In this document: in pieces, positions 32,824 to 62,909 of the stretch
Numbering within the stretch: the stretch's first letter is position 1
How the letters are laid out: each line of letters starts with the position of its first letter
Source of the DNA: Acidimicrobiaceae bacterium
GTDB taxonomy: Bacteria; Actinomycetota; Acidimicrobiia; Acidimicrobiales; Aldehydirespiratoraceae
Direction: 5' to 3'
Assembly (NCBI GenBank): GCA_009843915.1
Contig: VYCM01000037.1
Location: 1 to 64,000 of the forward strand
DNA: 64,000 nucleotides
Position numbers and translations under genes: made by a program
The notes under the pieces: generated by a model
Database searches by the model: none
What the model was told of the DNA's origin: nothing
Seen by the model: the letters and a program-made list of their open reading frames with translations, nothing else

Positions 32824-32914
32824 CCCCTACTGACCCCGGCCGGGCCCCACTGCGTATCGCCTTGAAGGCGCGGAGCAGTCGGGGCTCGGCCAGCGGCCCC
32901 TGCGGCCACCTCAG

Positions 32915-33832
32915 TTGAGCCGTCCAGGCCGTCCGGCCCGACCAGCCCGTCGCGGTCCGTCGGGGCGCGTCCAGCCGGTGGCGTACCTGTACCTGCTGCC
33001 GGCGTTCGCCTTCTTCGCGGTGTTCGCGGTGGCGCCGCTGGCCCACGCGTTCAAGCTGTCGTTCTACGAGTGGAACGGCATCACCGATCAGGTGTGGGTG
33101 GGCCTCGACAACTACGTCACCGTGTTCACCGATCCGAAGGTGCGCGCCGCGCTGTGGAACTCCGTCCTCCTGATCGTCTTCTACGCGGTGCTGCCGATCT
33201 GCATTGCGCTGGTGGTGGTCGGGCTGATGGCGAGGGTCCGGATCCGGGGCCGAACGGCGTTCAGGGCGGTGCTGTTCGTGCCGACGATCCTGCCGCTGAC
33301 CGTGGTTGCTGTGGCGTGGCGCTGGGTGTACGCGCCCGATGGGCCGCTGAACTTCGGCCTCGACCTGATCGGCCTGGACTTCGTCAGCCGGGCCTGGCTG
33401 GGCGACTTCACCTTCGCGCTGCCGTCGCTGGGCATGGTCGGCACCTGGGTGACCTTCGGCCTGGTGTTCGTGCTGTTCGCTGCGGGCGTTCAGAAGATCC
33501 CGCCGGAGCTCTACGAGTCGGCCCGCCTCGACGGCGCCAATATGGTCCGCGAGTTTTTCGCGGTGACGCTGCCGGCGCTGCGCGGCGAGATCACCGTGGC
33601 GCTGATCCTCACCGTCACCGCGGCGTTGCGCAACTTCGACCTCGTATTCGTGATGACCCGCGGCGGCCCCGGCACCAACACCGAGGTCCCGTCGATGTTC
33701 ATCTACCGCTCGGTGTTCCAGATCCGCTCGATCGGCCTCGGGGCGGCCATCGGGGTGATCCTGATGCTGGAGCTGCTGGCGGTGAACCTGGCCGTACTGT
33801 GGTACCGCCGCCGCGGCGACCTCTCCGCATGA
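32915..33832 (+). CDS. Sugar ABC transporter permease (MalF-like)
   Basis: YLYLLPAFAFFAVFAVAPLAHAFKLSFYEWNG...; ELYESARLDGANMVREFFAVTLPAL; TTG start. Confidence 0.87.
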   Translation: MSRPGRPARPARRGPSGRVQPVAYLYLLPAFAFFAVFAVAPLAHAFKLSFYEWNGITDQVWVGLDNYVTVFTDPKVRAALWNSVLLIVFYAVLPICIALVVVGLMARVRIRGRTAFRAVLFVPTILPLTVVAVAWRWVYAPDGPLNFGLDLIGLDFVSRAWLGDFTFALPSLGMVGTWVTFGLVFVLFAAGVQKIPPELYESARLDGANMVREFFAVTLPALRGEITVALILTVTAALRNFDLVFVMTRGGPGTNTEVPSMFIYRSVFQIRSIGLGAAIGVILMLELLAVNLAVLWYRRRGDLSA

Positions 33833-33896
33833 GCCCGCTGGTCGCAGGCCGGGCGGCCGACGCGGGCCGGGGCAGGGCGGCCGAGGGGCGGCTGCT

Positions 33897-34730
33897 GTGA
33901 TCGAGAGCCGCCACGAGCGCCGCTTCGTGCACCTGGTGCTGCTCGGCGCCAGCGTGATCGCGCTCTACCCGTTCGTGTCGATCCTGCTGCTGGCGCTGAA
34001 CCCGCCCGGCAAGCGCGTCAGCGGGTTCACCATCCCGAGCACGATCTCGTTCGAGAACTTCACGCTGGCGTGGCAGCGAGGCGGCTTCGCGCAGGCGCTG
34101 TTCTCGAGCGCGGTGGTCGCCATCACCGTCGTCACCGCGAGCGTGGCCTTCTCGATTCTGGCGGGCTACGCGTTCGCAACGATGCGCTTCCCGCTGCGCA
34201 ACACGCTGTTCGTGATCCTGCTCGCTGGGCTGATGCTGCCCTACGAGGCGCTGATCGTCCCGCTGTACTTCGACTTCAGGTCGCTCGGCCTGCTCGACTC
34301 GCGCTGGGCCGTGATCCTGCCGCAGATCGGCTTCAGCGTGTCGTTCGGCACGTTCTGGATGCGCACTGCGTTCTGGGCCCAGTCGGGCGGCTCGCTGGTG
34401 GAGGCAGCCGAACTTGACGGCGCCAACACCTGGGACATCCTGAGACGGGTGCTGCTGCCGGTCAGCGGCCCGGCAATCATGTCGCTGTCGGCGCTGCTGT
34501 TCCTGTTCGCGTGGAACGACTTCCTGCTCGCGCTGGTGCTGCTGCCCCAGAACGAGGCGGCGCAGACAGCCCCGCTGGCGCTGTCGTTCTTCGCGGGGCT
34601 GCGACGCGGCGGCGAGCCGTCGACGATCGCGGCGGCGGCGCTGCTGGTGGCGTTCCCGGTGCTGATCGTCTACATCGTGATGCAGCGGCGGTTCATCCAG
34701 GGCATCACAACGGGAGCCACCAAGGGATGA
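33897..34730 (+). CDS. Sugar ABC transporter permease (MalG-like)
   Basis: SLVEAAELDGANTWDILRRVLLPVSGPA; QRRFIQGITTGATKG C-terminus. Confidence 0.88.
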   Translation: MIESRHERRFVHLVLLGASVIALYPFVSILLLALNPPGKRVSGFTIPSTISFENFTLAWQRGGFAQALFSSAVVAITVVTASVAFSILAGYAFATMRFPLRNTLFVILLAGLMLPYEALIVPLYFDFRSLGLLDSRWAVILPQIGFSVSFGTFWMRTAFWAQSGGSLVEAAELDGANTWDILRRVLLPVSGPAIMSLSALLFLFAWNDFLLALVLLPQNEAAQTAPLALSFFAGLRRGGEPSTIAAAALLVAFPVLIVYIVMQRRFIQGITTGATKG

Positions 34731-35524
34731 CGACCGGCCACAGACGCTTCGGCACGTCGCTAGAGCTCGGAGCGGCCGCGGCCGGCCAGATCGCGGCCGG
34801 GATCGTCGAGAGCCGAGCTGCGGGCCGCCCGTACCTGCTCGGGTGTCCCGGAGGGCGCACGCCCCAGCCCATCTACGCCGAACTGGGCCGGATCTGCGCC
34901 GCCGACGGCCTCGACTGCTCTGGGGTGGTGCTGGTGATGATGGACGACTACCTGGACCCCCACTCCGCGACGCCTGTGCCGGTCTCGAGCGATGTCCACA
35001 ACTCCTGCCGGCGCTTCGCGGAGCAGGAGATCCGCCTGGTGATCAACCAGGGCCTGGCGGCCTCACGTCGCGTGCCACCAGAGTCGGTGTGGTTCCCTGA
35101 TCCGCTCGACCCCCCGGCCTACGACCGGCGCATCGCGGACGCGGGAGGGGTCGAGGTGTTTATTGCGGCCAGTGGCGCGTCGGACGGCCACGTCGCCTTC
35201 TGCGGCCCGGGATCGGACCTCGACGGCGCCAGTGCCGTCGTGGAACTGGCCCCGACGACCCGGGCCGACAACGTCTTCACCTTCCCCGGCTTCGCCTCGG
35301 CGGACGAGGTCCCAACCCACGGCGTATCGGTCGGGTTGGGAACGATCCGCCGGCACTCGCGCTCGGTGTGGCTGGTGCTCCACGGAGCCGACAAGGCCGA
35401 GTCCCTGCTGCGGGTGCTGCGCACGGCAAGCCACGACCCGGCTTGGCCGGCGACGTTCATACACGAATGCCCGGGCGCGGTGATCTGGAGTGACGCGAGC
35501 GCCGAGAGGGGTGGGATGTCGTGA
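34727..35524 (+). CDS. NagB/6-phosphogluconolactonase-family protein
   Basis: YLLGCPGGRTPQPIYAEL, VLVMMDDYLDP, SDGHVAFCGPGSDLDG, HGVSVGLGTIRRHSRSVWLVLHGADKA. Confidence 0.75.
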   Translation: MTTGHRRFGTSLELGAAAAGQIAAGIVESRAAGRPYLLGCPGGRTPQPIYAELGRICAADGLDCSGVVLVMMDDYLDPHSATPVPVSSDVHNSCRRFAEQEIRLVINQGLAASRRVPPESVWFPDPLDPPAYDRRIADAGGVEVFIAASGASDGHVAFCGPGSDLDGASAVVELAPTTRADNVFTFPGFASADEVPTHGVSVGLGTIRRHSRSVWLVLHGADKAESLLRVLRTASHDPAWPATFIHECPGAVIWSDASAERGGMS

Positions 35525-36681
35525 GCGGCCCGACCGCGGCGGGAACGGGGCCTTCGGTGAAGGTGCGACTGGGGATCGTCGGGCTGGGCAGCGTGTTCGA
35601 GCCGTATGCGGCTCTGATCCGCGACTTGAAGTACTCCGGACGCGTCGAGGTGGTCGCCGCGTGCGACATCGTCGCCGGCCGTGCCCGCCGGGTTCGCGAC
35701 TTCCTGCACCAGGACACGGCCTTCAGCACCGACTACGCCGATGTCACCGAACGCGACGACGTGGATGCGGTGCTGGTGCTGACCGCCATGCCGAGCCACG
35801 GCGAGATCGCCGCGGCCGCCCTGGCCGCGGGCAAGCATGTGCTGGTGGAGAAGCCGATGTCGATCCACCTCGACGAGGCCGCCGAGCTGGTGGCCCAGGC
35901 CCGGACCTCGCCGGGCTTGCTGGTGTGCGCCCCCCACGTGGTGCTGAGTCCCACCTACCAGGCGCTGTGGAAGCGAGTCGTCGACGACGATGAGATCGGG
36001 ACGGTGCTCACCGCCAGGGCCCGCTACGGATGGTCGGGACCGACCTGGGGGCGGTGGTACTACGACACCGGTGGCGGCCCGCTGTTCGACCTGGGCGTCT
36101 ACAACATCACCTCGCTCACCGGCCTGATGGGGCCCGTGAAGCGGGTGACGGCACTGGCCGGCACCGCCATACCGCAGCGCGAGGTTGACGGCGAGGTGAT
36201 CGAGGTCAGCGACTTCGACAACTACCAGGTGCTGCTCGACTTCGGCGACGCCCGCTCCGCGGTGGTGACCACCGGCTTCACCATGCACGAGTACCGCTCG
36301 CCGGCCATCGAGCTGTACGGCACTACAGGCGTGGCCCAGATGTTGGGCGACGACTGGGCCCCGCAGGGATACGAGATCGTGCGGGCGGACACGGCCGGCT
36401 GGACCACCTACGCCGAGGTCGATCCGGCGTGGCCGTGGACCGCGGGGCTGAGACACCTCGTCGACTGCGTCATCGACTCTGAGAGGCTGCTGATCCGCCC
36501 CGAGCACGCCTACCACTGCCTGGAAGTGATGGTCAAGGCGCGGCTGGCCGCGGTCTCGGGCGAGACTCAAGCAGTGTCGAGCACGGTCGACCCGGTGCCG
36601 TACGATCCCGAAGCGATCTACGTCCAGCGCGGCGGAAAGGTGGGCCACGACTACCGGATCCGCCGCCACCGCGACGACTAG
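35521..36681 (+). CDS. Gfo/Idh/MocA-family oxidoreductase
   Basis: KVRLGIVGLGSVFEPYAALIRDL; VLVEKPMSIHLDEAAELVAQAR; GPTWGRWYYDTGGGPLFDLGVYNI. Confidence 0.88.
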   Translation: MSGPTAAGTGPSVKVRLGIVGLGSVFEPYAALIRDLKYSGRVEVVAACDIVAGRARRVRDFLHQDTAFSTDYADVTERDDVDAVLVLTAMPSHGEIAAAALAAGKHVLVEKPMSIHLDEAAELVAQARTSPGLLVCAPHVVLSPTYQALWKRVVDDDEIGTVLTARARYGWSGPTWGRWYYDTGGGPLFDLGVYNITSLTGLMGPVKRVTALAGTAIPQREVDGEVIEVSDFDNYQVLLDFGDARSAVVTTGFTMHEYRSPAIELYGTTGVAQMLGDDWAPQGYEIVRADTAGWTTYAEVDPAWPWTAGLRHLVDCVIDSERLLIRPEHAYHCLEVMVKARLAAVSGETQAVSSTVDPVPYDPEAIYVQRGGKVGHDYRIRRHRDD

Positions 36682-36694
36682 GGGGCCGAGCGGA

Positions 36695-37744
36695 GTGGGC
36701 ACGGGCACCTACGTCATCGGGGTGGACGGGGGCAATACGAGTTCTACTGCGGTGGTGGTGGACGGCTCGGGCACCGTTGTCGGAGTGGGTGACGGCGGCT
36801 GCACGGACATCTACGGGGTGGCGTCGCCGCCGCAGGCGCTGGCCGAACTCGACCGGGTGGTGGCAACGGCCCTGGGGCAGGCGGGGCTCGGACCCACCCA
36901 ACTGCGGTCGGGGGTCTTCAGCCTGGCCGGGGCCGACTGGCCCGAAGATCACGACTATCTGCGCAGCCACTTGGGCGGCTGCTCGTTCGGCTTCGAGCCG
37001 CTCGTGGTCAACGACGCCATGGGCGGGCTCAGGCTGGGCTCACCGTTGTGGGAGGGGATCGCCGTCATCTGCGGCACCGGCAACGCGGTGGGCGCCCGCC
37101 GTCGCGACGGCACCTGCTTCCACCTCGGTTTCTGGCCCGACACGGTGGGAGCCGCCACCCTCAGCCAGGCGGCCCTCGACGCCGTGCTGCGCCATCACCT
37201 GGACCTCGGTCCGCCCACATCGCTCACGGATCGGGCGCTCGGGCTCTATGGTGCGACCGATCCGATCGAACTGCAGCACCGGTTCACCGGCCGGGACGGC
37301 CTCGGCCACACCGACCTCGTGCGGATGAGCCCGCTGCTGCTGGATGAAGCCGACCGGCATGACGCGGTGGCGCTGGAGATTGTGACCGCGGCCGGCCGGG
37401 CCATGGGCGGGCAGGCCCGGGCATCAGCGGCGCGGATCGAACTCGACATGGCCGGCGCGGTCACGGTGCTGGGCGGCGGGCTGTTCCAGCACCCCACCGC
37501 CGTCCTGGTCGACGCGGTGATGGCGGAGCTGCCCGGAGCAGTGGCTCACCGCACGACGCTGCCACCGGTCCTCGGCGCGGTCATGGCCGCACTCGACCAG
37601 ATCGGCCGCCCGTCCGATCCGCAGGAGTTGAACCGGTCGCTGCGGGATTTCAGAGGCCGAGCGAACAGGCGAGCGAATCCGCCCCATACGGGCGAGGCCG
37701 TGGCCCGAGCGGCCCGTGAGCGAAGCGAACAAGAGCGGGAGTGA
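36695..37744 (+). CDS. BadF/BadG/BcrA/BcrD ATPase-family (GlcNAc kinase-like) sugar kinase
   Basis: YVIGVDGGNTSSTAVVVDGSGTVVGVG; NDAMGGLRLGSPLWEGIAVICGTGNAVGARRRDG. Confidence 0.83.
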   Translation: MGTGTYVIGVDGGNTSSTAVVVDGSGTVVGVGDGGCTDIYGVASPPQALAELDRVVATALGQAGLGPTQLRSGVFSLAGADWPEDHDYLRSHLGGCSFGFEPLVVNDAMGGLRLGSPLWEGIAVICGTGNAVGARRRDGTCFHLGFWPDTVGAATLSQAALDAVLRHHLDLGPPTSLTDRALGLYGATDPIELQHRFTGRDGLGHTDLVRMSPLLLDEADRHDAVALEIVTAAGRAMGGQARASAARIELDMAGAVTVLGGGLFQHPTAVLVDAVMAELPGAVAHRTTLPPVLGAVMAALDQIGRPSDPQELNRSLRDFRGRANRRANPPHTGEAVARAARERSEQERE

Positions 37745-37868
37745 GACCGCTGCGATACCACGCACTCCCACCTGCTCGCGTACGCTCCCAAGCCTCGGCT
37801 ACCAGCGGCGCGTAGGGTTTGGTTCCGGTGACCGCGACTCCGATGCTCCGGCAATCTGAAGGTGCGAG

Positions 37869-39173
37869 ATGGCGCGAATCAAGCTCGCCTACATAGGTGG
37901 CGGCTCCACCCGAGCCCCCGGCACGATGGCCAGCTTCGCCCATCAGGGCGAGAACTTCGACGGATCCGAGGTTGTGCTGATCGACCTCGACGCTGAGCGT
38001 CTCGCTCTCACCAGGGAGATAGCCCAGCGGCTGATGGCGGCCCGGGGCCTTGACATCTCGGTGGAAGCCACCACCGACCGTCTCGCCGGGCTGGACGGCT
38101 GCGACGCGGTGCTCACCAGCTACCGCCCGGGCGGTTTCGAGGCCCGTGTGGCGGACGAGCGCATCCCGTTGTCGCACAACATCATCGGCCAGGAGACCCA
38201 GGGTCCGGGCGGGTTCTTCATGGCGCTGCGATCGATCGCAGTGATGCAGGACATCCTGTCTGACATCGACAGGGCCTGCCCCGGCGCGGCCATCTTCAAC
38301 TACACCAATCCGGTGAACATCGTGTCGCAGGCGGTCTCAGACAACTCCGACGCCAACATCGTGTCGCTGTGCGAGGGACCGATCGTCTATCCCCGGATGC
38401 TGACCGAGGCGGTGGGCCTCGACCCCGACAAACTCGACGTGGCCAGCGTCGGACTCAACCACGGGTCGTGGTCGGTGACCCACACCTACGAGGGCGAATC
38501 GCTCATACCGCTGCTGCGCGAGAAGTGGGAGGAGGAGGCCGAGGTACCGAGGCTGGCCGGCCAGGAACGCAGGATGCTGCAGCTGGCGGCGGCGATGGAT
38601 TCGGTGCCGAGCGGCTATTTCCAGTACTACTACTTCGAGGAGGAGATCCTCGCCGAGTATCACGCCAAGGCCACCACCCGGGCCGAGGACATCCTGGCCG
38701 AGGTGCCGTCGTACTGGTCGCACTACCGCGAGCAGGCCCGGAGCCAGGATCCGCAGCTCGATCCCTCCCGCTCGCGTGGCGGAATCCATGAACTGGAGCT
38801 GGCCATCGACTGCATGGACGCGGTGTTCAACAACCGCGACGAGGTCATGACGGTCAACGTGGCCAACTCCGGCAGCATCGACGGGTTCGACGACTCGCTG
38901 GTGGTGGAGACCCTCGGCCGCTGCGATGCCGCTGGCGTGCGACCCGTCGAGATGCCGAGCCTGCCGTCACATGTGCGCGGCCTCGTTGAGGCTCTGGCCT
39001 ACTACCAGCAGGCCGCGGCCGACGCGGCGTGGAGCGGGACGAGCCATGAGGCCGTCCAGGCGCTGGCCTCGCATCCGCTGGTGAGATCGATCGACAAGGC
39101 CGAGCGGCTCTATGCCGAGATGGCCTTCGCCCATCGCGACTACCTGCCTGAGAGGCTGATCCCTACCGGCTGA
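37869..39173 (+). CDS. Glycoside hydrolase family 4 (6-phospho-glycosidase-like)
   Basis: MARIKLAYIGGGSTRAPG; QETQGPGGFFMALRSI; IFNYTNPVNIVSQAV; SVGLNHGSW. Confidence 0.87.
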   Translation: MARIKLAYIGGGSTRAPGTMASFAHQGENFDGSEVVLIDLDAERLALTREIAQRLMAARGLDISVEATTDRLAGLDGCDAVLTSYRPGGFEARVADERIPLSHNIIGQETQGPGGFFMALRSIAVMQDILSDIDRACPGAAIFNYTNPVNIVSQAVSDNSDANIVSLCEGPIVYPRMLTEAVGLDPDKLDVASVGLNHGSWSVTHTYEGESLIPLLREKWEEEAEVPRLAGQERRMLQLAAAMDSVPSGYFQYYYFEEEILAEYHAKATTRAEDILAEVPSYWSHYREQARSQDPQLDPSRSRGGIHELELAIDCMDAVFNNRDEVMTVNVANSGSIDGFDDSLVVETLGRCDAAGVRPVEMPSLPSHVRGLVEALAYYQQAAADAAWSGTSHEAVQALASHPLVRSIDKAERLYAEMAFAHRDYLPERLIPTG

Positions 39174-40053
39174 GCCGACCCGGCTCCTTGCCTTCGAGAG
39201 CCAGCAGGCCCGCGCCGATGACACCGGCTTGCGGTCCGAGATGGGCCTGCACCAGCGGCGGTGGCTGTGGCCGGCCACGGATGAGTTCGCCGTAGTGCCT
39301 GGAGAGCGACTGAGAGAAGTCGCCCTTACTGCTGCCGAGACCTCCGCCGACGATCACCGCCGCCGGGTCGAGCAGTTGCACTGCGCAGGTGAGGGCCGTG
39401 GCCACGATCTGTCCCGCCCGGGTCTCGATCGCGGCTCGGTGGCTGGCTGCCTTTCGCTGATCGTCGGAAGCGTCGGCGGCCTCGACCGCGTCGTTGATGG
39501 CTCGACCCGAGGCCTGCTCCTCCACGGTCAGTGGCCCTCCAGGATGCAGAGCGAGTGCAGGATCGGCCGGCAGTTCGCCCAGCGCTATCGCCTCGCCCCG
39601 GTGGCCGGGCCATAGCCGGCCGTCGATGACGAGGGTGGAGGAGATGCCCGTGCCGATGATCACGAACAAGAAGCTGGCGAGGGTCAGGCCGTGACCGAGC
39701 CGGGCCTCCGCCCGGGCCGCGCAGCGCACATCCGAGTCGATCAGGATGGGCAGACCGGATCCGGAGGTCGCCGGCAATGCCTGTAGCGAGGGCAGCACGA
39801 GAGCGCTGCTGATCCGCCCGTGGGGCGTGACGTACTCGGGGACACCTACTCCGGCCTGCTCTACGGCCCGGCCGCCTTCTGCTGCCCGTCGGGCCAGCCG
39901 GTCGATGAGCGCCAGTGCCTCGGGCGCGCTCTGATCGCCTTCCTGGGTCGGGGTGGCCACGGTCTCGGCGCTGCGGATCGCTCCGTCCTCGTCGACCACC
40001 GCGCCGGCGATCTTCGTGCCACCGACATCGATGCCCACCGCGGCCGGCGTCAT
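39163..40053 (-). CDS. ROK-family kinase/regulator-like protein
   Basis: AVGIDVGGTKIAGAVVDEDGAI; DPAAVIVGGGLGSSKGDF; internal ATG start chosen. Confidence 0.83.
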   Translation of the reverse strand: MTPAAVGIDVGGTKIAGAVVDEDGAIRSAETVATPTQEGDQSAPEALALIDRLARRAAEGGRAVEQAGVGVPEYVTPHGRISSALVLPSLQALPATSGSGLPILIDSDVRCAARAEARLGHGLTLASFLFVIIGTGISSTLVIDGRLWPGHRGEAIALGELPADPALALHPGGPLTVEEQASGRAINDAVEAADASDDQRKAASHRAAIETRAGQIVATALTCAVQLLDPAAVIVGGGLGSSKGDFSQSLSRHYGELIRGRPQPPPLVQAHLGPQAGVIGAGLLALEGKEPGRLSR

Positions 40054-40057
40054 GCCG

Positions 40058-40930
40058 TCAACTGGACTCGGGGCCGATGTCGTCGGTGCTGGTCCATCCA
40101 GGCCCGATCCCGCACAGCCAGATCGCCTGCGTGCCGCCCGCCGACAGATACGAATGGGGGGTTCCTGGCGGCAGCACCGCGGCGTCGCCCGCATCGAGGT
40201 ACAGGCAGTTGGCGTCCTCAGCGGCGGGTGTGTTGATCACGAGACGTCCCGAGAGCAGCAGCACGAACTCCTCCCCGGGATGCTGCTCGTCACGGGACGC
40301 GGCCCCGGCTCGAAGGTGGCATCGCATCACGGTCAGGTGCTCGGTGGCGGCCAGGAGCGCGAGCTCGAGCGGTCCCCGGGTGCCCCAGGCGAGGTCGTGC
40401 TCCCGCACGGGCGTGAGCCGTTGCTCGAGCGCTCCTGCCGCCATGGGCCAGGAACCGAGCAGCCGGCCGTCGACCGTGGCCGTCCTCTCCAGGTAGGGCT
40501 GCCTTCGTGCGTAGGCGCTTGACGCCCCGGTGGCGGGGGTGGGCGAGAAGAACTCGAGCACCCGTACGCCCGTGTCCCCGGCGGCGCGGCCGTGGTGCCA
40601 GGTGTCCCGCCGGAAGAACACCGCCTCGCCGGCCTTTGCTCGCTGGGTCTCGCCGGTCGAGGGGTCGCTCAGCAACAGCGTGCCGTCGAGCACGTACAGC
40701 AGTTCGTCGGCCGCGAAGATCGTGGGGTTGTCCGGGGAGTGCCCGAACCGTCCCCCGGACGGCATCGAGAACTCCAGCACGTGCAGCAGCTGCGACGACA
40801 GGTAGACGCGGTCCAGCACGAAACCCGATTCGGTGTCGCCCCAGACATGGCGGGTCCGGTCCGACGCACCGATGACCGTGGGGCGGTCGAACGCCGGGCG
40901 CGGCGTCGGGCGTCGTGACGGGGTGCTCAT
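40058..40930 (-). CDS. Bicupin protein
   Basis: Two cupin-like halves: ELLYVLDGTLLLSD...RRDTWHHGRA and HPGEEFVLLLSGRLVI...LPPGTPHSYLS. Confidence 0.75.
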   Translation of the reverse strand: MSTPSRRPTPRPAFDRPTVIGASDRTRHVWGDTESGFVLDRVYLSSQLLHVLEFSMPSGGRFGHSPDNPTIFAADELLYVLDGTLLLSDPSTGETQRAKAGEAVFFRRDTWHHGRAAGDTGVRVLEFFSPTPATGASSAYARRQPYLERTATVDGRLLGSWPMAAGALEQRLTPVREHDLAWGTRGPLELALLAATEHLTVMRCHLRAGAASRDEQHPGEEFVLLLSGRLVINTPAAEDANCLYLDAGDAAVLPPGTPHSYLSAGGTQAIWLCGIGPGWTSTDDIGPESS

Positions 40931-40993: not shown

Positions 40994-41971
40994 CTAGTGG
41001 CCGGTGGCGATGGCGACCACCTCGGACAGCAGGTCGCGGTTGGCGGCCGGGCCGGGCGAGATGATGTTCACGAAGAAGGCGTCGAGAAGGTGCGCGCCGA
41101 TCAAGTGCTCAAGCTGGCTGCGGCACTCCGCGGGCGTGCCTGCAATCTGGTAAGAGGCAACCAACTCGTCGGTCACGAGTTGGCCGACAGCTTCGGGGCC
41201 ACCTTCGGTGAACGCCTGCTTCAGGCCGGCGATCTCGGCATCGTTCAGGCCGAGGTTCTTGAGGACCCGGGGTGGGCTGTCCATGATGGCGTAGCCGTAG
41301 AGGTGCTTGGCCTCCTCGATCATCTCAGGCCTGTACGCCAGCCGGTCGAGGTAGATGCGAGTGAGTGGGGTGCCGACAGCCGTTCGGGCCCGATCGGCGA
41401 TGCCGAACGCGTCGGCCAGGTCGGACTTGACCATCAGCACCAGACCGTCGGCGTGGGTCCCGGCCACCGCCAGCATCCGCTCGCCGCGGGCCGCGACCCA
41501 GATCGGGATCGAGTGGGTGCCGGTCGTGAGATGGGCGCCCTCCAGCGAGAGTCTGCGTCCCTGCCAGGTGACCGGCTCGCCCCGCCACAGCAGCCGGAGA
41601 GCCTCGATAGTGTCGGCCATCATCGCCAGCGGGGCCGATCTCTCCAGGCCCATCGGATGCAGCACCATGGTGCCGCCGGCCACCAACGTAACGAAGGCCC
41701 GGCCCCCGCTCATCTCGTCGACGGTGGCGATGGCGGCCGCCGTGGCGGCCGGGTGGCGGGTGTAGGGGTTGGTGACCGCCCCCAGGCGGATGGTGCTGGT
41801 TGCCTGGGCCGCCGCGCCGAGCACGGCGTAGACGTCGAGCATCAGGCCCTCGTCGGCCACCATGCAGTAGGCGTAGCCGAGTTCCTCGGCCGTCACAATG
41901 GTGTCGATGAGTTCCGCCGAACCCATCGTCGGCACGATCTGGAGGCCGAGCTCAATCTTGCCGGCGGTCAC
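40994..41971 (-). CDS. LLM-class (F420-dependent luciferase-like) oxidoreductase, Mer-like pattern
   Basis: TIRLGAVTNPYTRHPAATAAAIATVDEMSGGRAFVTLVAGG; GTG start MTAGKIELGLQIVPT. Confidence 0.8.
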   Translation of the reverse strand: MTAGKIELGLQIVPTMGSAELIDTIVTAEELGYAYCMVADEGLMLDVYAVLGAAAQATSTIRLGAVTNPYTRHPAATAAAIATVDEMSGGRAFVTLVAGGTMVLHPMGLERSAPLAMMADTIEALRLLWRGEPVTWQGRRLSLEGAHLTTGTHSIPIWVAARGERMLAVAGTHADGLVLMVKSDLADAFGIADRARTAVGTPLTRIYLDRLAYRPEMIEEAKHLYGYAIMDSPPRVLKNLGLNDAEIAGLKQAFTEGGPEAVGQLVTDELVASYQIAGTPAECRSQLEHLIGAHLLDAFFVNIISPGPAANRDLLSEVVAIATGH

Positions 41972-42690
41972 GGTTCGGGCTCGATCCAGGGGTCGTCGAC
42001 GGGCCTGATGACGACCGGCCCGATGTCGATTCGCCGGTCGGTGCCGACCAGGTCGGCAACCAGTTCGCCCACCCCGGCCGCGGGCATCATCCGGGCCCGA
42101 ACAGAATCGGGGGCCTTGCCATCCCATAGCTCGGTGTCGATCTGGGCGGGGGACAGTGTGATCACCCGAATGCCGTGGTCCCGACCCTCCAGCCGCAGCA
42201 CCTCACCCAGCGCGTTGAGTCCTCCCTTGGACGCGGCGTAGGCCGCATTGCCCTCGAATGCTTGCACGGCAGCGATGCTGCTAATGAGCACGATCTGACC
42301 CGCGGACTGGCTGAGGGCCTCCCAGCCCGCCCTGGTCAGGGCCATCACCGCGCTCAGGTTGACGTCCAGCACCCGGTGCCAATGGTCCGGGGTGACCTCG
42401 GGTGCCGGCGCCTTGTCGAACACGCCCGCGCTGTGAACCATCAAGTCGATCCGGCCGTGCTCGGCGAGGACCTCCGCGACGACCCGCTCGGGCTCGCCGG
42501 GCGCGGTCAGATCGGCCGCGATCGGTGTTGCGGGCCCGTCCAGCTCCGAAGCCGCGGCCTCGAGCCGGTCCCGCCGGCGACCCACCAGCACGCATCGGGT
42601 GCCGCGAGCCGACAGGGAGGCCGCGCAGGCTGATCCGATACCCGAGCCGCCGCCGGTCACGACGGCCACTGCGGACTCGATGGCGGTCAT
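41968..42690 (-). CDS. Short-chain dehydrogenase/reductase
   Basis: AVAVVTGGGSGIGSACAASL; LISSIAAVQAFEGNAAYAASKGGLNALGEVLRLEG. Confidence 0.87.
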   Translation of the reverse strand: MTAIESAVAVVTGGGSGIGSACAASLSARGTRCVLVGRRRDRLEAAASELDGPATPIAADLTAPGEPERVVAEVLAEHGRIDLMVHSAGVFDKAPAPEVTPDHWHRVLDVNLSAVMALTRAGWEALSQSAGQIVLISSIAAVQAFEGNAAYAASKGGLNALGEVLRLEGRDHGIRVITLSPAQIDTELWDGKAPDSVRARMMPAAGVGELVADLVGTDRRIDIGPVVIRPVDDPWIEPEP

Positions 42691-42697
42691 CGGCCGG

Positions 42698-43657
42698 TTA
42701 CCCGAAGAATGATGCGGTCAGCACTTCGTAGTTGATGCGTCCCGCGCTGAAGGTCCGGCCGCTGGCCAGGTTGGTGAGGTGGATCTCGGCCGGGGAGTGC
42801 AGCTCGATGGGGATCTCGTAGAAGTCCCGACCGGCGTCCTCGTAGATCTCGATGAAGGGTCGTCCATAGGCCTCGCAGGCGACCGACACCACCCGGTCCA
42901 CGATCTCGGCGCACTGGGCGTCTTCGGCTTCGACGGTGACGTTGGAGATGCCGCCGTACAGCAGGCTGTCGTTGATGCGCCCCATCGAGATCAAGTCGTC
43001 GTCCACCAGGGGTGGCACCACGCCCAGGCCGTAGGCGTAGCGCAGGCCGCGCAGGTCCATGCCCTCCTCGGCCAGGCGGTGAATCGACTGCTCCACGATG
43101 CGGGCCGCCACCTGCACCGCGGTCACCAGGCTGCGGTTGGGCGCGAACAGCACGTACAGGTCGCTGGGGGCGACCCGGCATGCGGAGGCGATCATGTCGG
43201 CCATGGCCTCCGGGATCGGCTCGGAGGTCTGGATGGCCACCACCGACTCGTGGTGGTCGTCGCGGTAGTCGATCCACTCGAAGTAGTGGTCGAGGCTGTC
43301 GCGGTTCAGGGCCCGCCCCGGCCCGGCCAGGATGGCGGCGTGCTCGGTGCCGGGGGCCTGGAGGCGCCAGCCGGCGATCTGCGACGCCACGCAGGCCTCG
43401 ATGGGGTGGTCGATCATCACCCGCACCGCGGCGAGCATGCGCCCGGCCAGTTCGAAGGGCTCGTAGCTGACGATGCCCAGTCCGCCCAGGCTGGCCACGG
43501 TGTAGAGCTGCGCGGCCCGCCAGCCGCCCTTGGCCTCCAGGCCCATGTCGATGACGGTCGTGCCGTTCCCGAGCCGGTCCACCGACACGCCCAGCGCGTC
43601 GGCCTCGTCGAGGACGACCCGCACCGTCTTCATTGCCTCACGGTTGACGCTGACCAT
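42698..43657 (-). CDS. mch: Methenyltetrahydromethanopterin cyclohydrolase (Mch) homologue
   Basis: Colinear motifs: MVSVNREAMK, NGTTVIDMGLEAKGG, DHPIEACVASQIAGWRL, GPGRALNR, LFAPNRSLVTAVQVAARIVEQSIHRL, MGRINDSLLYGGISNVTV, YGRPFIEIYEDAGRDFYEI, HSPAEIHLTNLASGRTFSAGRINYEVLTASF. Confidence 0.88.
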   Translation of the reverse strand: MVSVNREAMKTVRVVLDEADALGVSVDRLGNGTTVIDMGLEAKGGWRAAQLYTVASLGGLGIVSYEPFELAGRMLAAVRVMIDHPIEACVASQIAGWRLQAPGTEHAAILAGPGRALNRDSLDHYFEWIDYRDDHHESVVAIQTSEPIPEAMADMIASACRVAPSDLYVLFAPNRSLVTAVQVAARIVEQSIHRLAEEGMDLRGLRYAYGLGVVPPLVDDDLISMGRINDSLLYGGISNVTVEAEDAQCAEIVDRVVSVACEAYGRPFIEIYEDAGRDFYEIPIELHSPAEIHLTNLASGRTFSAGRINYEVLTASFFG

Positions 43658-43658
43658 G

Positions 43659-44435
43659 TCAGGCGGGGGTGGACTCGCGGGCGCCCAGCGCGGCGTCGAC
43701 GGGGATGATGGCGCCGTTCAGGTAGCTGGCCTCCGGTGAGGCCGCGAACAGGATGGCAGCAGTGATCTCGGCGGGCCGTCCGAAGCGGCCCTCGGGGATG
43801 TGGCGCTGGATGGCGGCCTGAAGGTCGGGGTCCGGCATCCCGGCCAGCAGAGCCTCAGTGGCGATGAGACCGGGCGCCACCGCGTTGACCCTCACTCCCT
43901 TGGGGCCGAGTTCCAGGGCCATGGCCCGGGTCAGCCCCTCGACAGCGCCCTTGGAGGCGATGTAGGCGCAGCGGTTGACCACCCCCAGGCGAGCCAGGAT
44001 GGAGCTGACGTGGACGATGGCGCCCCGGCCCCGCTCCACCATGCCGGCCGCCGCCAGCTGGCTCAGCTGGAACAGCCCTCTCACGTTGGCCTGCCAGACC
44101 GTGTCGAAGGCCTCCAGGGACAGGTCGAACATCGAGGAGCGGTCGATGACCGCCGCGTTGTTGACCAGGATCGACACCGGCCCCAGCGAGGCCTCCACCT
44201 CCTGAGCGAGCCGGGCCACGTCGGCCTCGCGGCCGATGTCGGCCTGGAACACCTCGGCCGTGCCGCCTGCGTCGGCGATGGCCTCACGGGTGGTGACCGC
44301 ACCGTCGGCGTCGCTGCGGTAGTTGACCGCGACCCGGGCACCCTCGGCTGCGAACGCTCGGGCGGTTGCCGCGCCGATGCCCCTGGATGAGCCGGTGATC
44401 AGCACGGTGTCGCCGTCGAAGCGATCAGGTCTCAC
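43659..44435 (-). CDS. Short-chain dehydrogenase/reductase (FabG-like)
   Basis: VLITGSSRGIGAATARAFAAEGARVAVNYR; VHVSSILARLGVVNRCAYIASKGAVEGLTRAMALELG. Confidence 0.88.
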   Translation of the reverse strand: MRPDRFDGDTVLITGSSRGIGAATARAFAAEGARVAVNYRSDADGAVTTREAIADAGGTAEVFQADIGREADVARLAQEVEASLGPVSILVNNAAVIDRSSMFDLSLEAFDTVWQANVRGLFQLSQLAAAGMVERGRGAIVHVSSILARLGVVNRCAYIASKGAVEGLTRAMALELGPKGVRVNAVAPGLIATEALLAGMPDPDLQAAIQRHIPEGRFGRPAEITAAILFAASPEASYLNGAIIPVDAALGARESTPA

Positions 44436-46750: not shown

Positions 46751-46751
<1 letters not shown>

Positions 46752-47425
46752 TACGGCTCCTTGGGGTTGGCGATGAACTCCGACCACGGCGTGCGGGCCA
46801 GGAAGTAGGCGCCATCGTCCACTGTGCGGAGATAGGTCCGCAAACCGAGCCGGCCGATGGGTTCCAGCCGCAGCGGGTCGATGCGGCCATCGGGATCGCA
46901 GATGGCGGCGTCGTAGGCCACCCACACCACCTCGGCGATCACCAGATGGACCTCGCTGAAGATCTTTCCCGGTGTTCCGAGGTCGACCACCTTGCGCACC
47001 TCGCACTCGAGGCGGGCCAGAGCCTCGCCGATGGCAGGTGATGTGACCTTGGTGGCCGGCACCGGGGTCCAGCCGGCCAGCTCGTACTCGTCCACGTTGC
47101 TCGGCGCCTCCATGGCCACCGTCTCGATCCATTCGCGGAAGACCTCGGTGGTGACGTTCACCACGAAGTCGCCGCTGGCCATCGCGTTGTTGTAGGTGTC
47201 CTTGAGCTCCCCGGTCTCCCTGAGGCCCATGGTGATGCCGAGCAGCATCGGATCGCCGGTGAGGGGCAGGTAGTAGCTCATGGGCGCGATGTTGGCGACG
47301 CCCTCAGGACTGCGGGTGGACACCATGGCGATGGGGCGGGGCACCACCAGCTGCGACAGCATGAACTGCCGCTCCATCGGCGGGTGCTCGGCCGGGTCGA
47401 AGGTGACGGTCCGCTCTTGGTCCAC
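46751..47425 (-). CDS. Flavin reductase-family protein
   Basis: MLSQLVVPRPIAMVSTRSPEGVANIAPMSYYLPLTGDPMLLGITMG...SGDFVVNVTTE. Confidence 0.83.
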
Positions 47426-47462: not shown

Positions 47463-48632
47463 TCAGGCGCCGTTGGCGGGCCAGTGCTCGCGGTAGCGCC
47501 TCACCAGCCAGCGGTTGAACTGCACCAGGGTCTCCTCCTGCCACGAGTAGCGACCGCGGGGCGCGAGATGCGAGTTGAGGCCCTGCTGGGTCATGGCGTC
47601 TACGTAGATGTCCTGCTCGTTGAAGTTGTTGACGCCGTCCTCGGCCGCCTTGAACAGGTAGTCGAACAGGGGGTCCTCCAGCGCCGACGGCTCCAGGCAG
47701 TAGCCGATGTGGATGGTGATGTTGCCGGCGTCCTGCGGGCTGATGATGAAGTAGGCCACCTCGTCGGGGACGATGGCCAGCGCCAGCGTGGGCGGGATCA
47801 GCACGAAGCCGCCCCGCTTGCGCTGATCGGTGGTCAGGTTGGAGAACACGGGCAGGATGCAGCGCTGGGTGGGGTTGAATGAGCTGTCGATGTCGGTGAA
47901 GTGCTGGATCCGGCCGATGGCGCCGTCGTTGTCGTCCCAGGGCAGGAAGTCGTTCATGTGACTGGGAGCGAAGGTCTGGAGTGGGCCGTGCAGCCGGCTG
48001 GCGTGGTAGGGGTCGTTGAAGTTCTCCATCATGACCTTCCAGTTCCACGGAAGGTCCGGGATCGTCTTGCCTCCGAGGGTGGTCGTCGACTCCAGCCCGT
48101 AGTTGGTGAGCATGTCGTCGATCTTGGTCATGGTCGGCCCGAAGGGCGGGGCGTCGTGGTCGAAGTTGGCCATGATGAACCCCTGCCAGATCTCCACCTT
48201 CAACTCGGGCAGGTTGTGATCACTGCGGTCGAAGTCCACCGCGCGCTCCATAGCCGGGGTGCCGAGCAGCGCACCGTCGAGCCCGTAGGTCCAGTGGTGA
48301 TAAGGGCACGTGAAGCGGCGGCAGTTGCCCGATCCCTCCGCGATGACCATTCCCCGGTGGCGGCACACGGCCGACATCACCCGCAACTCGCTGTCGGAGT
48401 CCCGAGCCGCGATCAGCGGCTCGCCCGCGATGGTGATGCAGCGGAAGTCTCCCGGCTCCTTCAGCTGGTCGATCCGGCCCACGCACAGCCACTCCCGCCG
48501 GAAGATGGCCTGCCGTTCGAACTCGTAGAACTCCGGTGACGTGTACAGCACCGGCGGCAGCAGCCGGGCCTCGTCCACTGGCCCGACCGACTCGTCGAAG
48601 CTGGCCAGCAGGTCGTCGGTCAGCACTGTCAT
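47463..48632 (-). CDS. Rieske-type oxygenase, alpha subunit (second copy in window)
   Basis: CRHRGM...CPYHHWTYGLDGALLG; MENFNDPYHASRLHG. Confidence 0.88.
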   Translation of the reverse strand: MTVLTDDLLASFDESVGPVDEARLLPPVLYTSPEFYEFERQAIFRREWLCVGRIDQLKEPGDFRCITIAGEPLIAARDSDSELRVMSAVCRHRGMVIAEGSGNCRRFTCPYHHWTYGLDGALLGTPAMERAVDFDRSDHNLPELKVEIWQGFIMANFDHDAPPFGPTMTKIDDMLTNYGLESTTTLGGKTIPDLPWNWKVMMENFNDPYHASRLHGPLQTFAPSHMNDFLPWDDNDGAIGRIQHFTDIDSSFNPTQRCILPVFSNLTTDQRKRGGFVLIPPTLALAIVPDEVAYFIISPQDAGNITIHIGYCLEPSALEDPLFDYLFKAAEDGVNNFNEQDIYVDAMTQQGLNSHLAPRGRYSWQEETLVQFNRWLVRRYREHWPANGA

Positions 48633-48690: not shown

Positions 48691-50328
48691 CTAGTTGGCC
48701 GGATCGAGCGGCTTCACATCGGGAGAGGCGGGGACGCCGTCGCTTTGAAGCGCCCTACCGAGATGCAGGCAGAGGGCGTCGTTGTGGTGAGGGGCGACGA
48801 TCTGCACAGCTGCGGGACGGCCTTCGTCCGACCCGACGGGCACCACCAGCGCGGGATTGCCGGTGACGTTGAACGGCAGGAAGTTGCGGGCCACCTTGTC
48901 GAGCCACAGCCGGTCGCCGTCATCGAAGAACGTGGCCGGATTGGGCGCCGAGGTGGGCGTGGCCGCGGTGACCAGGACATCCACCCGCTCGAAGGCCGCG
49001 TCGAGGTCGCGCTGGACCAGCTCGCGGGCCCGCAGAGCCCTCAGGTAATCGGCGGCGCTGGTTCGGGCTCCGGCCGCGAGACGGCAAGCGGCCGAGGGCG
49101 TGAACTCGCCGATGCGGTGGAGGTTGCCGGCGTGGTGCGCGGCGAACTCCACCACCGTGATGACCCAGGCGATGATGCCGGCCAGCTCGGCGTGGGGGAA
49201 CGGCACCGTCTCGACCGTGCAGCCGGACTGCTCCAGTAGGGCGAGCGCAGCCGACAGGGCCTGGGCCACTCCCGGTGAGGAGCCCTCGGGTAGCCATCCG
49301 TCGGGAACCCCGACGCGCAGACCCTGCACCGATGCCCCGATCGCCCGGTAGTCACCGACGGTGCTCGTCGACGAGTACGGGTCGGCCTGGCTGCGGCCCG
49401 CGATGACGCTCAATACCAACTCCAGATCCTCGACGGTCCGGGCCATGGGGCCGACATGGTCCAGCGTCCATGACACCCCGAACACGCCGTCGCGGGGCAC
49501 CCGGCCGAACGTCGGCTTGAGGCCGCTCACGCCGCAGTACGACGACGGCACCCGGATGGACCCGCCGGTGTCGCTGCCGAGTGCCACCGGGAAGATCCCG
49601 GCGGCCAGACCGGCTGCCGAGCCCGAGGAGCTGCCCCCCGCCCACCGGCCCGGCGCGGCGGGATTGGTCACGCCGTCACCGGTCTCGTCGCCGAAGGCGA
49701 ACTCCGGGGTGGTCGTCTTGGCCAGGATCACCGCGCCGGCATCCCGCAGCCGGGCCACGACGGCGGCGTCGGCGGGAGGGACGCGGCCCGCGTACAGATT
49801 GGATCCCGCTGTCGTGGCCAGACCCGCCGTATCGATGATGTCCTTCACTCCGACAGGGACGCCTTCCAGCGGCCCGGCGTCACCTCTTCGCCACCGTTGG
49901 GCTGAGCGTGCCGCCTGTTCTCGGGCCGCGTCGTCGTCGCGGGTCACAGCCGCTCCGATGTCGGTGTCGTTGATGCGGGTGAGGCAGGCGTCGACCATTT
50001 CGACCGGGTTGAATGCTCCCGTCTGGTAGCCATCCAGTAGTGCTGCAGCACTGAGGTCGGTCAGGTCGCCTCCAACCTTGGCAGGTTCGCTCTCCGGCGA
50101 GGGACGGGGCTCCTCGACGGTCCCGGATGCAGTCCGGGCCTTTGGCGGCCCGGCTTCAGAGATCCAGCGATCGCCTGCCGCGGGACCGACGGTGTTGGGG
50201 AACGGCTCGCTCAGCGATCGCAGCGCGGCGAGCTTGTCGCCCAGCGTGGCCTGGGCATTGGCCGCCAGATTCAGAATGTCCTCGGGGATCGCGCTGCATC
50301 CCCTGGTGACCGCCCAATTGTCAACCAC
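48691..50328 (-). CDS. Amidase-signature family protein with N-terminal extension
   Basis: GVPVGVKDIIDTAGLATTAGS; PGRWAGGSSSGSAAGLAAGIFPVALGSDTGGSIRVPSSYCGVSGLKPTFG. Confidence 0.87.
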   Translation of the reverse strand: MVDNWAVTRGCSAIPEDILNLAANAQATLGDKLAALRSLSEPFPNTVGPAAGDRWISEAGPPKARTASGTVEEPRPSPESEPAKVGGDLTDLSAAALLDGYQTGAFNPVEMVDACLTRINDTDIGAAVTRDDDAAREQAARSAQRWRRGDAGPLEGVPVGVKDIIDTAGLATTAGSNLYAGRVPPADAAVVARLRDAGAVILAKTTTPEFAFGDETGDGVTNPAAPGRWAGGSSSGSAAGLAAGIFPVALGSDTGGSIRVPSSYCGVSGLKPTFGRVPRDGVFGVSWTLDHVGPMARTVEDLELVLSVIAGRSQADPYSSTSTVGDYRAIGASVQGLRVGVPDGWLPEGSSPGVAQALSAALALLEQSGCTVETVPFPHAELAGIIAWVITVVEFAAHHAGNLHRIGEFTPSAACRLAAGARTSAADYLRALRARELVQRDLDAAFERVDVLVTAATPTSAPNPATFFDDGDRLWLDKVARNFLPFNVTGNPALVVPVGSDEGRPAAVQIVAPHHNDALCLHLGRALQSDGVPASPDVKPLDPAN

Positions 50329-50337
50329 GCCCGGTCT

Positions 50338-51264
50338 TTAGTTCCAGTCTCCCGGTGACCACACGAGCGGGAAGACTTCGCCGAAGGAATCGAGGGCCTG
50401 GCCCGTCTGGGGGTGTTGCTCGGCCAGGCCAGGAGGGTCGGGCACCATCTGCCCTGTTCGCTGGATGTACCGGGCCTCAGGGCCGGCAAAAAGCGCGGCA
50501 TAGGCCCGCCGGTCGTGTTCGAGGGTCACTCCCTCGGCCGTCCCGTGGAGCAGGTTGCCGTGGAAGAGGATCACGTCACCGGGCCGGTAATCCCAGCCCA
50601 TGATGTCGAACGATCCGCGATCGCGAGGCACGTCGGGGGTGGGAGGCATCGACTTGTCCATCACCACGCCGCGGTAGGCGAACCCCGAACCCCCCTTCTC
50701 GTAGACGCCGCGCTTGCGAGCCAGGGCCATCCGGAGAGCGTTCTCCTCGTCGGACATGTCGGGGTCCCGGCCCACCATCGGCCGGTATGTGACGTTCCAG
50801 CGGTGCGATCCGCGGACCACTTCGAGGCTGGCCGGGCGAGGCACCCGGTCCGGTGATGCCCAGGCTCGCACCAGGTGGTGGCCCTCCACGTTGTGATAGC
50901 TGGTGTCCTGGTGCCACGGGGTCGGGGCCATGAACCCTGCCCTCCGGAAGAACATCTGGTCCATGTAGAAGCGCACGGGAGCGCTGAGCACCGAGCCCAC
51001 GAGACCGCCGACGGGTGAGTCGTTGGCGAACCGGCGAAGGCTGACGGACCGGGCAGCCAGCAGCTGGTCGGCCCGCACGGTCGCCCCCTGGGCGACAACC
51101 TCGCTGGACATGTGGTCGCGCTGGGCGTAGCACTCCTCCAGGCCGTCGGCGATCAAGTCCACCCACTCAGGGGCCAGCACGCCTTCGAGCAGCACCGCTC
51201 CATCGCGGTGGAACGCCTCGCTCTCGGCGTCGGTGACGTCTCTCAGGGGCGGGGCCGAGGTCAT
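50338..51264 (-). CDS. Phytanoyl-CoA dioxygenase (PhyH)-family protein
   Basis: FHRDGAVLLEGVLAPEWVDL; PTPWHQDTSYHNVEG; GDVILFHGNLLHGT. Confidence 0.85.
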   Translation of the reverse strand: MTSAPPLRDVTDAESEAFHRDGAVLLEGVLAPEWVDLIADGLEECYAQRDHMSSEVVAQGATVRADQLLAARSVSLRRFANDSPVGGLVGSVLSAPVRFYMDQMFFRRAGFMAPTPWHQDTSYHNVEGHHLVRAWASPDRVPRPASLEVVRGSHRWNVTYRPMVGRDPDMSDEENALRMALARKRGVYEKGGSGFAYRGVVMDKSMPPTPDVPRDRGSFDIMGWDYRPGDVILFHGNLLHGTAEGVTLEHDRRAYAALFAGPEARYIQRTGQMVPDPPGLAEQHPQTGQALDSFGEVFPLVWSPGDWN

Positions 51265-51812
51265 CGGCCGCCGCCTTCGTAGGCGACCGCGGCCGCGAAG
51301 CGGTCGGTGCTGATGTCCTCGAGTCTCCATCCCGGAATGCCAGCGAGCCGGACAGAGCCGCTGGTTGCGCCGGCCCTCACTTCCTGCGGGATCTCGAAGC
51401 GGGACACGTCCAGCGAAAGGCCCATGCCGTGGGCCTTGCTAAGTGCTTCCTTCATCGTCCAGAGCCTGAAGAACAGGTGGAGCCGATCCCGGTCGTTCGC
51501 CGCGGACAACTCATGCTTCTCGTTGGGGCCGAACACTGCGTCGATCAACTCGTCGAGGTTCCGGTGGGGAAGCCGCTCCTCGACATCGATCCCGACCTGC
51601 CGGCCGGACGCTAGGGCGATCAGGCCGTGGGCGCCGCTGTGGCTCACGTTGAAGCTGATCGGAGCGCGCCGCCTGCGCACGATGGCGTACGGCTTGCCGT
51701 GCTGTGAGGTCCGGAAGGCGAGATGCTCGTTGCGGCAACCGAGTTCCTGGCACAGCGCGGATCGGAGTGCAGCCCGGCACAGCGTGAACCGGTGCCTCGG
51801 ACTCTCGTACAC
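51261..51812 (-). CDS. 4'-phosphopantetheinyl transferase, Sfp-type (true N-terminus probably upstream)
   Basis: ISFNVSHSGAHGLIALASGRQVGIDVEERLP; FFRLWTMKEALSKAHGMGLSLD. Confidence 0.87.
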   Translation of the reverse strand: MYESPRHRFTLCRAALRSALCQELGCRNEHLAFRTSQHGKPYAIVRRRRAPISFNVSHSGAHGLIALASGRQVGIDVEERLPHRNLDELIDAVFGPNEKHELSAANDRDRLHLFFRLWTMKEALSKAHGMGLSLDVSRFEIPQEVRAGATSGSVRLAGIPGWRLEDISTDRFAAAVAYEGGGR

Positions 51813-52327: not shown

Positions 52328-62003
<9,676 letters not shown>

Positions 62004-62011
<8 letters not shown>

Positions 62012-62909
62012 GGCCGATCGGCTCCAGGAACTTGCGCATAATGGCCACACAGTTGTCCGGCTGCTCCAGCTGGAGGAAGTGCGTGGCGTCGGGCAGGAAG
62101 TCGTAGTCCACTGTCAGCATCTCGCCGAAGTCCAGCGTCGGAAGGTACGAGTAGGGCAGCGTCGGATCGGCGCCGATCACCTTGGTCGGGCATTGCAGAG
62201 CATCCAGATCGACCAGCACCGCGAAGATCCTGGCATGAGCCATGATCTGCGCCTCGTGCTCCCGGGGGAAGCGGAGTTCGAAGCCGGAGCCGTTCTCAGC
62301 CTCGCGCAGGGTGGTGCTCGCCATCAGGTGATGAACACCGGGGACCATTTGCCTGAACGGGGGCAGGAAGGCGAGCAGGTCGGCGTAGGCCTCCAGGGTC
62401 TTGAACTGATAGGTGCGCTGCTCGGCCATCTTGGCGGCGCGCTTGATGGCCTCGTCGAACTCGTTGCGGGTCTCCACCGGCTTGCGCAGGGGGGGATCGA
62501 ACAGGACGAGAGCCGAGAACCGGCGACCTTCGGTGGTGGACAGCAGGGGCGCCAGCGACGACACCGAATGGAATACGCCCACTTGCGGCTTGGCGCCGAA
62601 GTGGCTGTCGATGGCGTCGAGGACCCGGTCATGGTCGTCGACGAAGGTGGGGACGGTGTGGTCCGACAGTGGACTGGCCGCGTTCCAGCCGTGGCTCCTG
62701 AGGTCGTAGACGACGACGTCGAACTCGTCTGTCAGCAGCGACCAGAACGGGTAGTAGAGATCAATCGAGAGACCGATGCCGTGGCTCAGGACGAGCCTGG
62801 TTCCCTCCGGGTTCCCGTGCCGGCGCACGGCAATGGTGGAATCCCCCTCCACCGGTACCTCGTGGACCGACAGTGGCTCGGGAAGGATCCAGTCAGCTTC
62901 CGAGGCCAT
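62004..62909 (-). CDS. Alpha/beta hydrolase-fold protein (possible PKS-associated thioesterase/acyltransferase)
   Basis: TRLVLSHGIGLSIDLYYPFWSLLTDEFDVVVYDLRSHGWN; nucleophile-elbow-like GVFHSVSSLAPLL; DATHFLQLEQPD. Confidence 0.75.

Follow-up and report, generated by a model that had tools for sequence, protein, structure and literature searches.

The stretch of DNA analysed here (the window, 64,000 nucleotides) derives from a marine actinobacterium of the class Acidimicrobiia, of sponge-symbiont type, and carries on its minus strand a tightly packed operon in the order E1 alpha, E1 beta, lipoyl-domain protein, short-chain dehydrogenase SDR1, Mch-like cyclohydrolase, short-chain dehydrogenase SDR2 and LLM-class oxidoreductase (Table 1). 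The Mch-like ORF has an ATG start, and the frame on the plus strand stops early.

Table 1. Genes of the operon around the Mch-like gene and upstream of it in the window
Feature	Position	Strand	Basis and remarks
LLM-class (F420-type) oxidoreductase, Mer-like	40994..41971	-	PF00296; GTG start at 41971; 4-nt overlap with SDR2
SDR2, short-chain dehydrogenase	41968..42690	-	PF00106; begins a few bases past the Mch stop
Mch-like cyclohydrolase (AMch), 319 aa	42698..43657	-	PF02289, TIGR03120, alignment
SDR1, short-chain dehydrogenase	43659..44435	-	PF13561; stop adjoins the Mch start
Free-standing lipoyl-domain protein, 89 aa	44438..44707	-	PF00364, 74.6 bits; ETEK lipoyl-lysine motif; closest PDB entries are PDH E2 lipoyl domains
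2-oxoacid dehydrogenase E1 beta, 347 aa	44734..45777	-	PF02779/PF02780; 4-nt overlap with E1 alpha
2-oxoacid dehydrogenase E1 alpha (TPP), 325 aa	45774..46751	-	PF00676; closest PDB entry is PDH E1 alpha
Flavin-reductase-like protein	46751..47425	-	PF01613; in 10/27 loci
Rieske oxygenase alpha subunit	47463..48632	-	PF00355/PF00848; in 9/27 loci
Amidase-signature hydrolase	48691..50328	-	PF01425; in 10/27 loci

A full-length member of the Mch family in Acidimicrobiia

The 319-aa product matched the Pfam MCH profile (PF02289) at 338 bits (E = 6e-101; cut-off 25), with its residues 3-317 aligned to profile positions 1-311 of 311, i.e. over the full length, and scored 278.2 bits with the NCBIfam model TIGR03120, over the curated cut-off of 228.8. 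The closest solved structure was M. kandleri Mch (1qlm, E = 1.6e-70, 42% identity); with this enzyme and that of A. fulgidus (4gvq, 36%) the protein shares homology over the full length, the catalytic Arg and Glu, a Q-x-A-G-W segment and its length. It is a genuine full-length member of the Mch fold family. A sequence-only reading of the window had called this ORF an Mch homologue, without naming a strand, and proposed checking it with Mch profile models; these scores bear the assignment out, and the Mch motifs quoted in that reading are all present in the translation.

A scan of GTDB genomes gave 26 relatives at 75-99% identity, all from MAGs of Acidimicrobiia or of less precisely named Actinomycetota, whose hosts belong to sponge-symbiont lineages and others. 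The host genome (assembly of 3.24 Mb, 87.8% complete) has a single Mch. The family is rare in the class, where the host's own genome alone passed the family cut-off (247 genomes sampled), and across the phylum (3 of 398 genomes sampled). A 447-bit Mch in another actinobacterial MAG (G534) was treated as a contaminant, as its gene (L045, G534:C406) lies on a contig of 1,017 bases and shares 76% identity with that of Methanobrevibacter ruminantium, a case of probable contamination. Values of dN/dS among the relatives were 0.06-0.27, indicating that the protein is under purifying selection. Because of this selection, the conservation in 26 loci and the presence of one relative (L014) on a single 3.27-Mb contig, a chance ORF or an oddity of assembly can be dismissed, and the Mch-like ORF is a real gene. 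A PADLOC scan of the protein gave no match, and its AlphaFold model was poor (pLDDT 56), since the alignment was narrow, only close relatives being alignable. Among open-access papers we found no description of Mch in Acidimicrobiia or of a module of E1, lipoyl, SDR, Mch and LLM genes.

A conserved operon of E1, lipoyl, SDR, Mch-like and LLM genes

Across 27 loci, the window included, E1 alpha was present in 20, E1 beta in 22, the lipoyl protein in 23, SDR1 in 25 and SDR2 in 23, where many of the absences fall at short contigs. The module-type LLM gene occurred at every one of the 27, of which L017 and L019 showed just a piece of it where the fetched stretch ended. Upstream in the window lie genes for the Rieske oxygenase, the flavin reductase and the amidase; these are confined to sponge-type lineages, so that the core comprises the E1, lipoyl, SDR, Mch and LLM genes. 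Given this conserved core, the Mch-like gene is not an orphan, as the sequence-only reading had described it, and a Mer-like LLM gene stands two genes away, which that reading had overlooked together with the conserved E1/lipoyl module. A scan for promoters and terminators found nothing.

The module resembles 2-oxoacid and acetoin-type dehydrogenase complexes in that E1 alpha, E1 beta and a lipoyl domain are encoded together, accompanied in eight loci (L015-L017, L019-L021, L023 and L025) by a gene for an E2 acyltransferase, placed between those for the lipoyl protein and SDR1 (for instance, positions 8470-9186 in L016). It differs from them in that the lipoyl domain is a separate 89-aa protein, in that the operon is shared with the Mch-like and LLM genes, and in that the operons of the window and its close relatives contain no E2 acyltransferase domain. 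Several E2-bearing loci run on into genes for an XRE-cupin regulator, a flavodoxin-fold protein and an ABC importer. Assigning a substrate through this transporter was rejected, as the importer's binding protein had no significant Pfam or PDB match in L025 and only a weak NMT1 match in L021.

Other gene clusters lie around the operon. A 3,240-aa modular polyketide-synthase-like protein is encoded at 52328-62050 (minus strand), and between its gene and the operon lie a phosphopantetheinyl-transferase-like gene (51261-51812) and a PhyH-type oxygenase gene (50338-51330); pieces of this polyketide-synthase-like/PhyH set adjoin the module in L003, L006 and L008. A second catabolic region (7813-30594) contains genes for hydantoinase A and B, a molybdopterin dehydrogenase fusion, an acyl-CoA-synthetase-like protein, a second Rieske oxygenase, a BMP-type ABC importer, a 2OG oxygenase and a histidinol-dehydrogenase family protein, and parts of it recur near the module in L003, L004, L010 and L011. 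An amino-sugar type cluster (31522-40194; ABC importer, GH4-like, ROK-like and kinase genes) adjoins the module also in L005, L006 and L010, and a partial NCS2 permease gene of the xanthine/uracil type (62954-64000, minus strand) is located at the window edge.

Retained catalytic residues and lost invariant positions

Invariant positions, 48 in number, were defined on ten H4MPT-type Mch proteins (three solved archaeal, six proteobacterial and that of the actinobacterium G314), among which the proteobacterial and G314 enzymes are classed as H4MPT-type by their gene context, two of the underlying records (L031 and L034) being unannotated. In A. fulgidus numbering, Arg183 and Glu186, which we take to be the catalytic pair with the roles given in a 2012 structural study, were kept in all 26 Acidimicrobiia proteins (R186 and E189 in the window protein), as was the Q93-x-A-G-W segment (Gln93, Ala95, Gly96 and Trp97), in which position 94 is Lys or Tyr in canonical Mch and Ile in the Acidimicrobiia proteins. 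On the other hand, 13 of the 48 positions were lost in every one of the 26 (C56, G108, S109, E140, P145, T171, G176, K191, P210, T225, P250, D276 and F280), GSGP of the H4MPT-type enzymes being replaced by LAGP, and each protein retained only 33-34 positions. When the H4MPT enzymes were left out one at a time, they showed 0-4 losses, against 13 in the Acidimicrobiia proteins. The sequence-only reading had named loss of catalytic or pterin-binding residues as a finding that would speak against it; the outcome is mixed, in that the catalytic pair stands and 13 other H4MPT-invariant residues do not.

In the phylogenetic tree with archaeal and proteobacterial Mch, a comparison that the earlier reading had also proposed, the Acidimicrobiia proteins formed one separate clade (support 100/100) on a long stem of 4.23 changes per site, although its exact attachment point is unsure because the tree tool flags long-branch effects. 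The haloarchaeal Mch (H. volcanii HVO_2573 type; Natronorubrum plasmid copy at L030, 8001-8924) has a similarly long branch and likewise works outside methanogenesis, a switch of pterin carrier having been proposed for this type. It keeps 40 of the 48 positions, only 3 of its 8 losses being common to the Acidimicrobiia proteins, and its locus, unlike theirs, is without the E1/lipoyl/LLM module. Regarding TIGR03120, the canonical H4MPT enzymes tested scored 351-396 bits, the haloarchaeal copy 277 and the Acidimicrobiia proteins 278-290, so that a cut-off of 228.8 admits both departures. Proteins of these two groups that pass this 'equivalog' cut-off probably do not use H4MPT.

The linked Mer-like LLM enzyme

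The LLM enzyme of the module resembles Mer, the F420-dependent methylene-H4MPT reductase, in belonging to the LLM family, in carrying a TNPYTRHP-type motif and in its closest solved relatives, which are Mer structures (E = 9e-37, about 31-35% identity; the next family at 1e-10). However, it stays below both Mer cut-offs (TIGR03555, 154.8 of 348.7 bits; PRK02271, 174.1 of 276 bits). Four residues of the pterin site were singled out in a mutational study of Mer, among them Asp96, a pterin contact, and Glu6, which protonates the substrate and whose replacement by Gln leaves 0.4% of kcat (PMC11094777). The enzymes of the module differ at all four: position 6 carries Gln in 25 (the window included) or His in 2, position 96 is Gly in 27, position 178 is Met in 25 (the window included), by which the carboxamide of Mer is gone (the residue is Gln in PMC11094777 and Asn in the deposited chain, a carboxamide either way), and Phe233 is Tyr in 24 or Trp in 1. 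Further LLM genes at the Mch-like loci also match Mer models best. We therefore rejected the reading in which this enzyme is a genuine Mer that would complete a C1 ladder, because it misses both cut-offs, is without the catalytic residues and has neighbouring LLM genes that match alike. Two relatives of C1-pterin enzymes in one operon, the Mch-like protein and the LLM enzyme, have thus both lost residues that mark pterin enzymes.

Similar LLM genes occur in other settings. In L016 (1-1182, a second copy) and at the left edge of L017, a module-type LLM gene and a pteridine-reductase-like SDR gene stand divergent from the module. On a plasmid of the betaproteobacterium Variovorax sp. PBL-E5 (L060, 9010-16982), a Mer-like LLM gene has soon after it genes for F420 reductase, cofG, cofH, cofD, cofC and cofE, and this F420 cluster adjoins amidohydrolase and C-N hydrolase genes.

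H4MPT, folate and F420 capacity of the hosts

The committed step to H4MPT is catalyzed by beta-ribofuranosylaminobenzene 5'-phosphate (beta-RFAP) synthase. The 27 Mch-bearing Acidimicrobiia genomes were searched for this enzyme (TIGR00144), Ftr (PF01913) and Fae (PF08714), three of the partner and biosynthesis genes for which the sequence-only reading had suggested looking, and each was absent from all 27. Since the relatives are all MAGs, the absence of a gene from any single genome means little, and the argument rests on the 27 genomes jointly and on the one near-complete contig. As positive controls, TIGR00144 detected beta-RFAP synthase in G314 and four proteobacterial plasmids (5/5), and Ftr was detected in G314. 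In this actinobacterium the canonical Mch is flanked by Mtd, Ftr, ATP-grasp and CitG-like genes (L047, G314:C5:71000-86083), with beta-RFAP synthase just upstream (G314:C5:69415-70344), and the phylum Actinomycetota thus holds a true H4MPT lineage. The annotated proteobacterial plasmid copies of mch are likewise all within canonical H4MPT clusters. Apart from the presence of an Mch gene, the Acidimicrobiia modules are unlike the proteobacterial and G314 clusters, which have beta-RFAP synthase, Mtd, ATP-grasp, CitG-like, Ftr or Fae genes near mch; we found none of these in the modules.

Regarding folate, FolD was present in 26 of the 27 genomes and MTHFR-family matches in 23, many of them weak; it is accordingly unlikely that the Mch-like and Mer-like proteins replace folate enzymes. 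Regarding F420, a Pfam match to CofD was rejected as proof, as related YvcK proteins match too, but a re-check with NCBIfam, made on the host's own genome only, gave cofD at 295 bits (TIGR01819, cut-off 257), so F420 is likely available to the host.

The presence of the Mch-like gene therefore does not indicate an H4MPT C1 pathway. An unexpected C1/pterin pathway in this bacterium, the first of the two readings offered from the sequence alone, is not supported, as beta-RFAP synthase, Ftr and Fae were missing from all 27 genomes, given a positive control from the same phylum.

Proposed recruitment of the Mch fold

The second reading, recruitment of Mch to another substrate, fared better. We consider, with a probability of roughly 0.55, that this Mch-fold protein has left H4MPT C1 metabolism and is a recruited cyclohydrolase in a conserved catabolic operon of Acidimicrobiia, on the grounds that 13 of the 48 invariant positions are lost, that the proteins form a separate clade and that pterin residues are lost in parallel in the LLM enzyme. 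A counterpoint is that the protein still scores over the TIGR03120 'equivalog' cut-off. By analogy with the canonical reaction, our best guess for the substrate is a cyclic amidine, as the earlier reading had also suggested.

Under a coenzyme switch to folate, the Mch-like protein would act as a cyclohydrolase on methenyl-H4F and the LLM enzyme would reduce methylene-H4F, with the SDRs and the lipoyl/E1 proteins feeding or draining H4F C1 units. The haloarchaeal Mch and Mer homologues, which are thought to use H4F (PMC8305020), provide a precedent, folate C1 enzymes are present in the Mch-bearing genomes, and the Mch-like and Mer-like genes are linked at all loci. Nevertheless, we regard this switch as unlikely. 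FolD already serves methenyl-H4F in nearly all of the genomes, the LLM enzyme is without the catalytic Glu and the pterin Asp of Mer, and the haloarchaeal Mch retains GSGP, E140, P145, T171, G176, P210, T225, P250 and F280, which are all altered in Acidimicrobiia. Given the use of H4F proposed for that haloarchaeal type, a simple swap from H4MPT to H4F does not call for the changes seen in the Acidimicrobiia proteins.

We find it quite improbable that a new C1 carrier, neither H4MPT nor H4F, is at work, on which the Mch-like, LLM and SDR enzymes would interconvert formyl, methenyl, methylene and methyl groups and to which E1 and the lipoyl protein would deliver C1 units. The gene set does fit parts of such a ladder, cofactor-contact or family-invariant residues have changed jointly in the Mch-like and LLM proteins, and the pteridine-reductase-like SDR found in L016 and L025 could act on a modified pterin; however, no genes for synthesis of a carrier were identified close to the module, its catabolic arrangement requires none, and E1/E2 complexes usually yield acyl-CoA.

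A functioning H4MPT pathway might draw on cofactor taken up from neighbours, an exchange that living in sponges could permit for many hosts, or on synthesis by non-homologous enzymes. Such a pathway would agree with the kept catalytic residues and the passed TIGR03120 cut-off, but it is very improbable given that the marker and partner genes are missing throughout while beta-RFAP synthase and Ftr are detectable in pathway-bearing G314, that the H4MPT-invariant positions are uniformly changed and that the module also occurs in Acidimicrobiia MAGs beyond the sponge-type lineages. A scaffold or regulator without hydrolase activity, to which the many altered family-invariant positions might point, is barely plausible for a protein that keeps the catalytic Arg and Glu and the Q-x-A-G-W segment throughout and has dN/dS values as in a working enzyme.

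For recruitment to a catabolic role, some of the loci, though not all, offer context that weakly points to breakdown of N-heterocycles: amidohydrolases of the ATZ/guanine-deaminase type lie upstream of the module in L016, L017 and L019, a complete xanthine-type NCS2 permease gene lies inside the operon in L024 (7086-8858), and the pteridine-reductase-like SDR occurs in the two loci named above. We give about even odds to a more specific proposal, a previously undescribed F420- and lipoyl-linked catabolic pathway of Acidimicrobiia in which the relatives of Mch and Mer have both been re-tooled for a non-pterin heterocycle and the Mch chemistry opens a ring other than that of methenyl-tetrahydropterin. 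On the recruitment reading, the Arg/Glu activation of water would be kept and the substrate pocket altered, and the Glu-activated water would attack an electron-poor ring carbon, most likely the carbon between the two nitrogens (N-C=N) in a five-membered cyclic amidine or amidinium arising from N-heterocycle breakdown. Opening of the ring would give an N-formyl or N-acyl product. The redox steps around this reaction would fall to the F420-type LLM enzyme and the SDRs, and E1 alpha/beta with the lipoyl protein would convert a 2-oxoacid or acyloin formed in this way into an acyl thioester. The E2 would be a dedicated one in some lineages and perhaps a borrowed one in the window host.

To our knowledge, the mch gene serves as a marker for methanogenic or methylotrophic C1 metabolism, and Mch has been treated as an enzyme of one substrate. 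For the Acidimicrobiia proteins, the annotation 'methenyltetrahydromethanopterin cyclohydrolase' is probably an over-annotation, and a clade that scores over the 'equivalog' cut-off in hosts without H4MPT biosynthesis would mislead mch surveys, including those of sponge microbiomes. The operon suggests that F420-type chemistry is tied to a lipoyl/TPP complex in a poorly cultured class of actinobacteria. If the recruitment is true, this would be, as far as we know, the first Mch-fold enzyme acting on a non-pterin substrate, and a defined operon would be at hand in which to seek its pathway.
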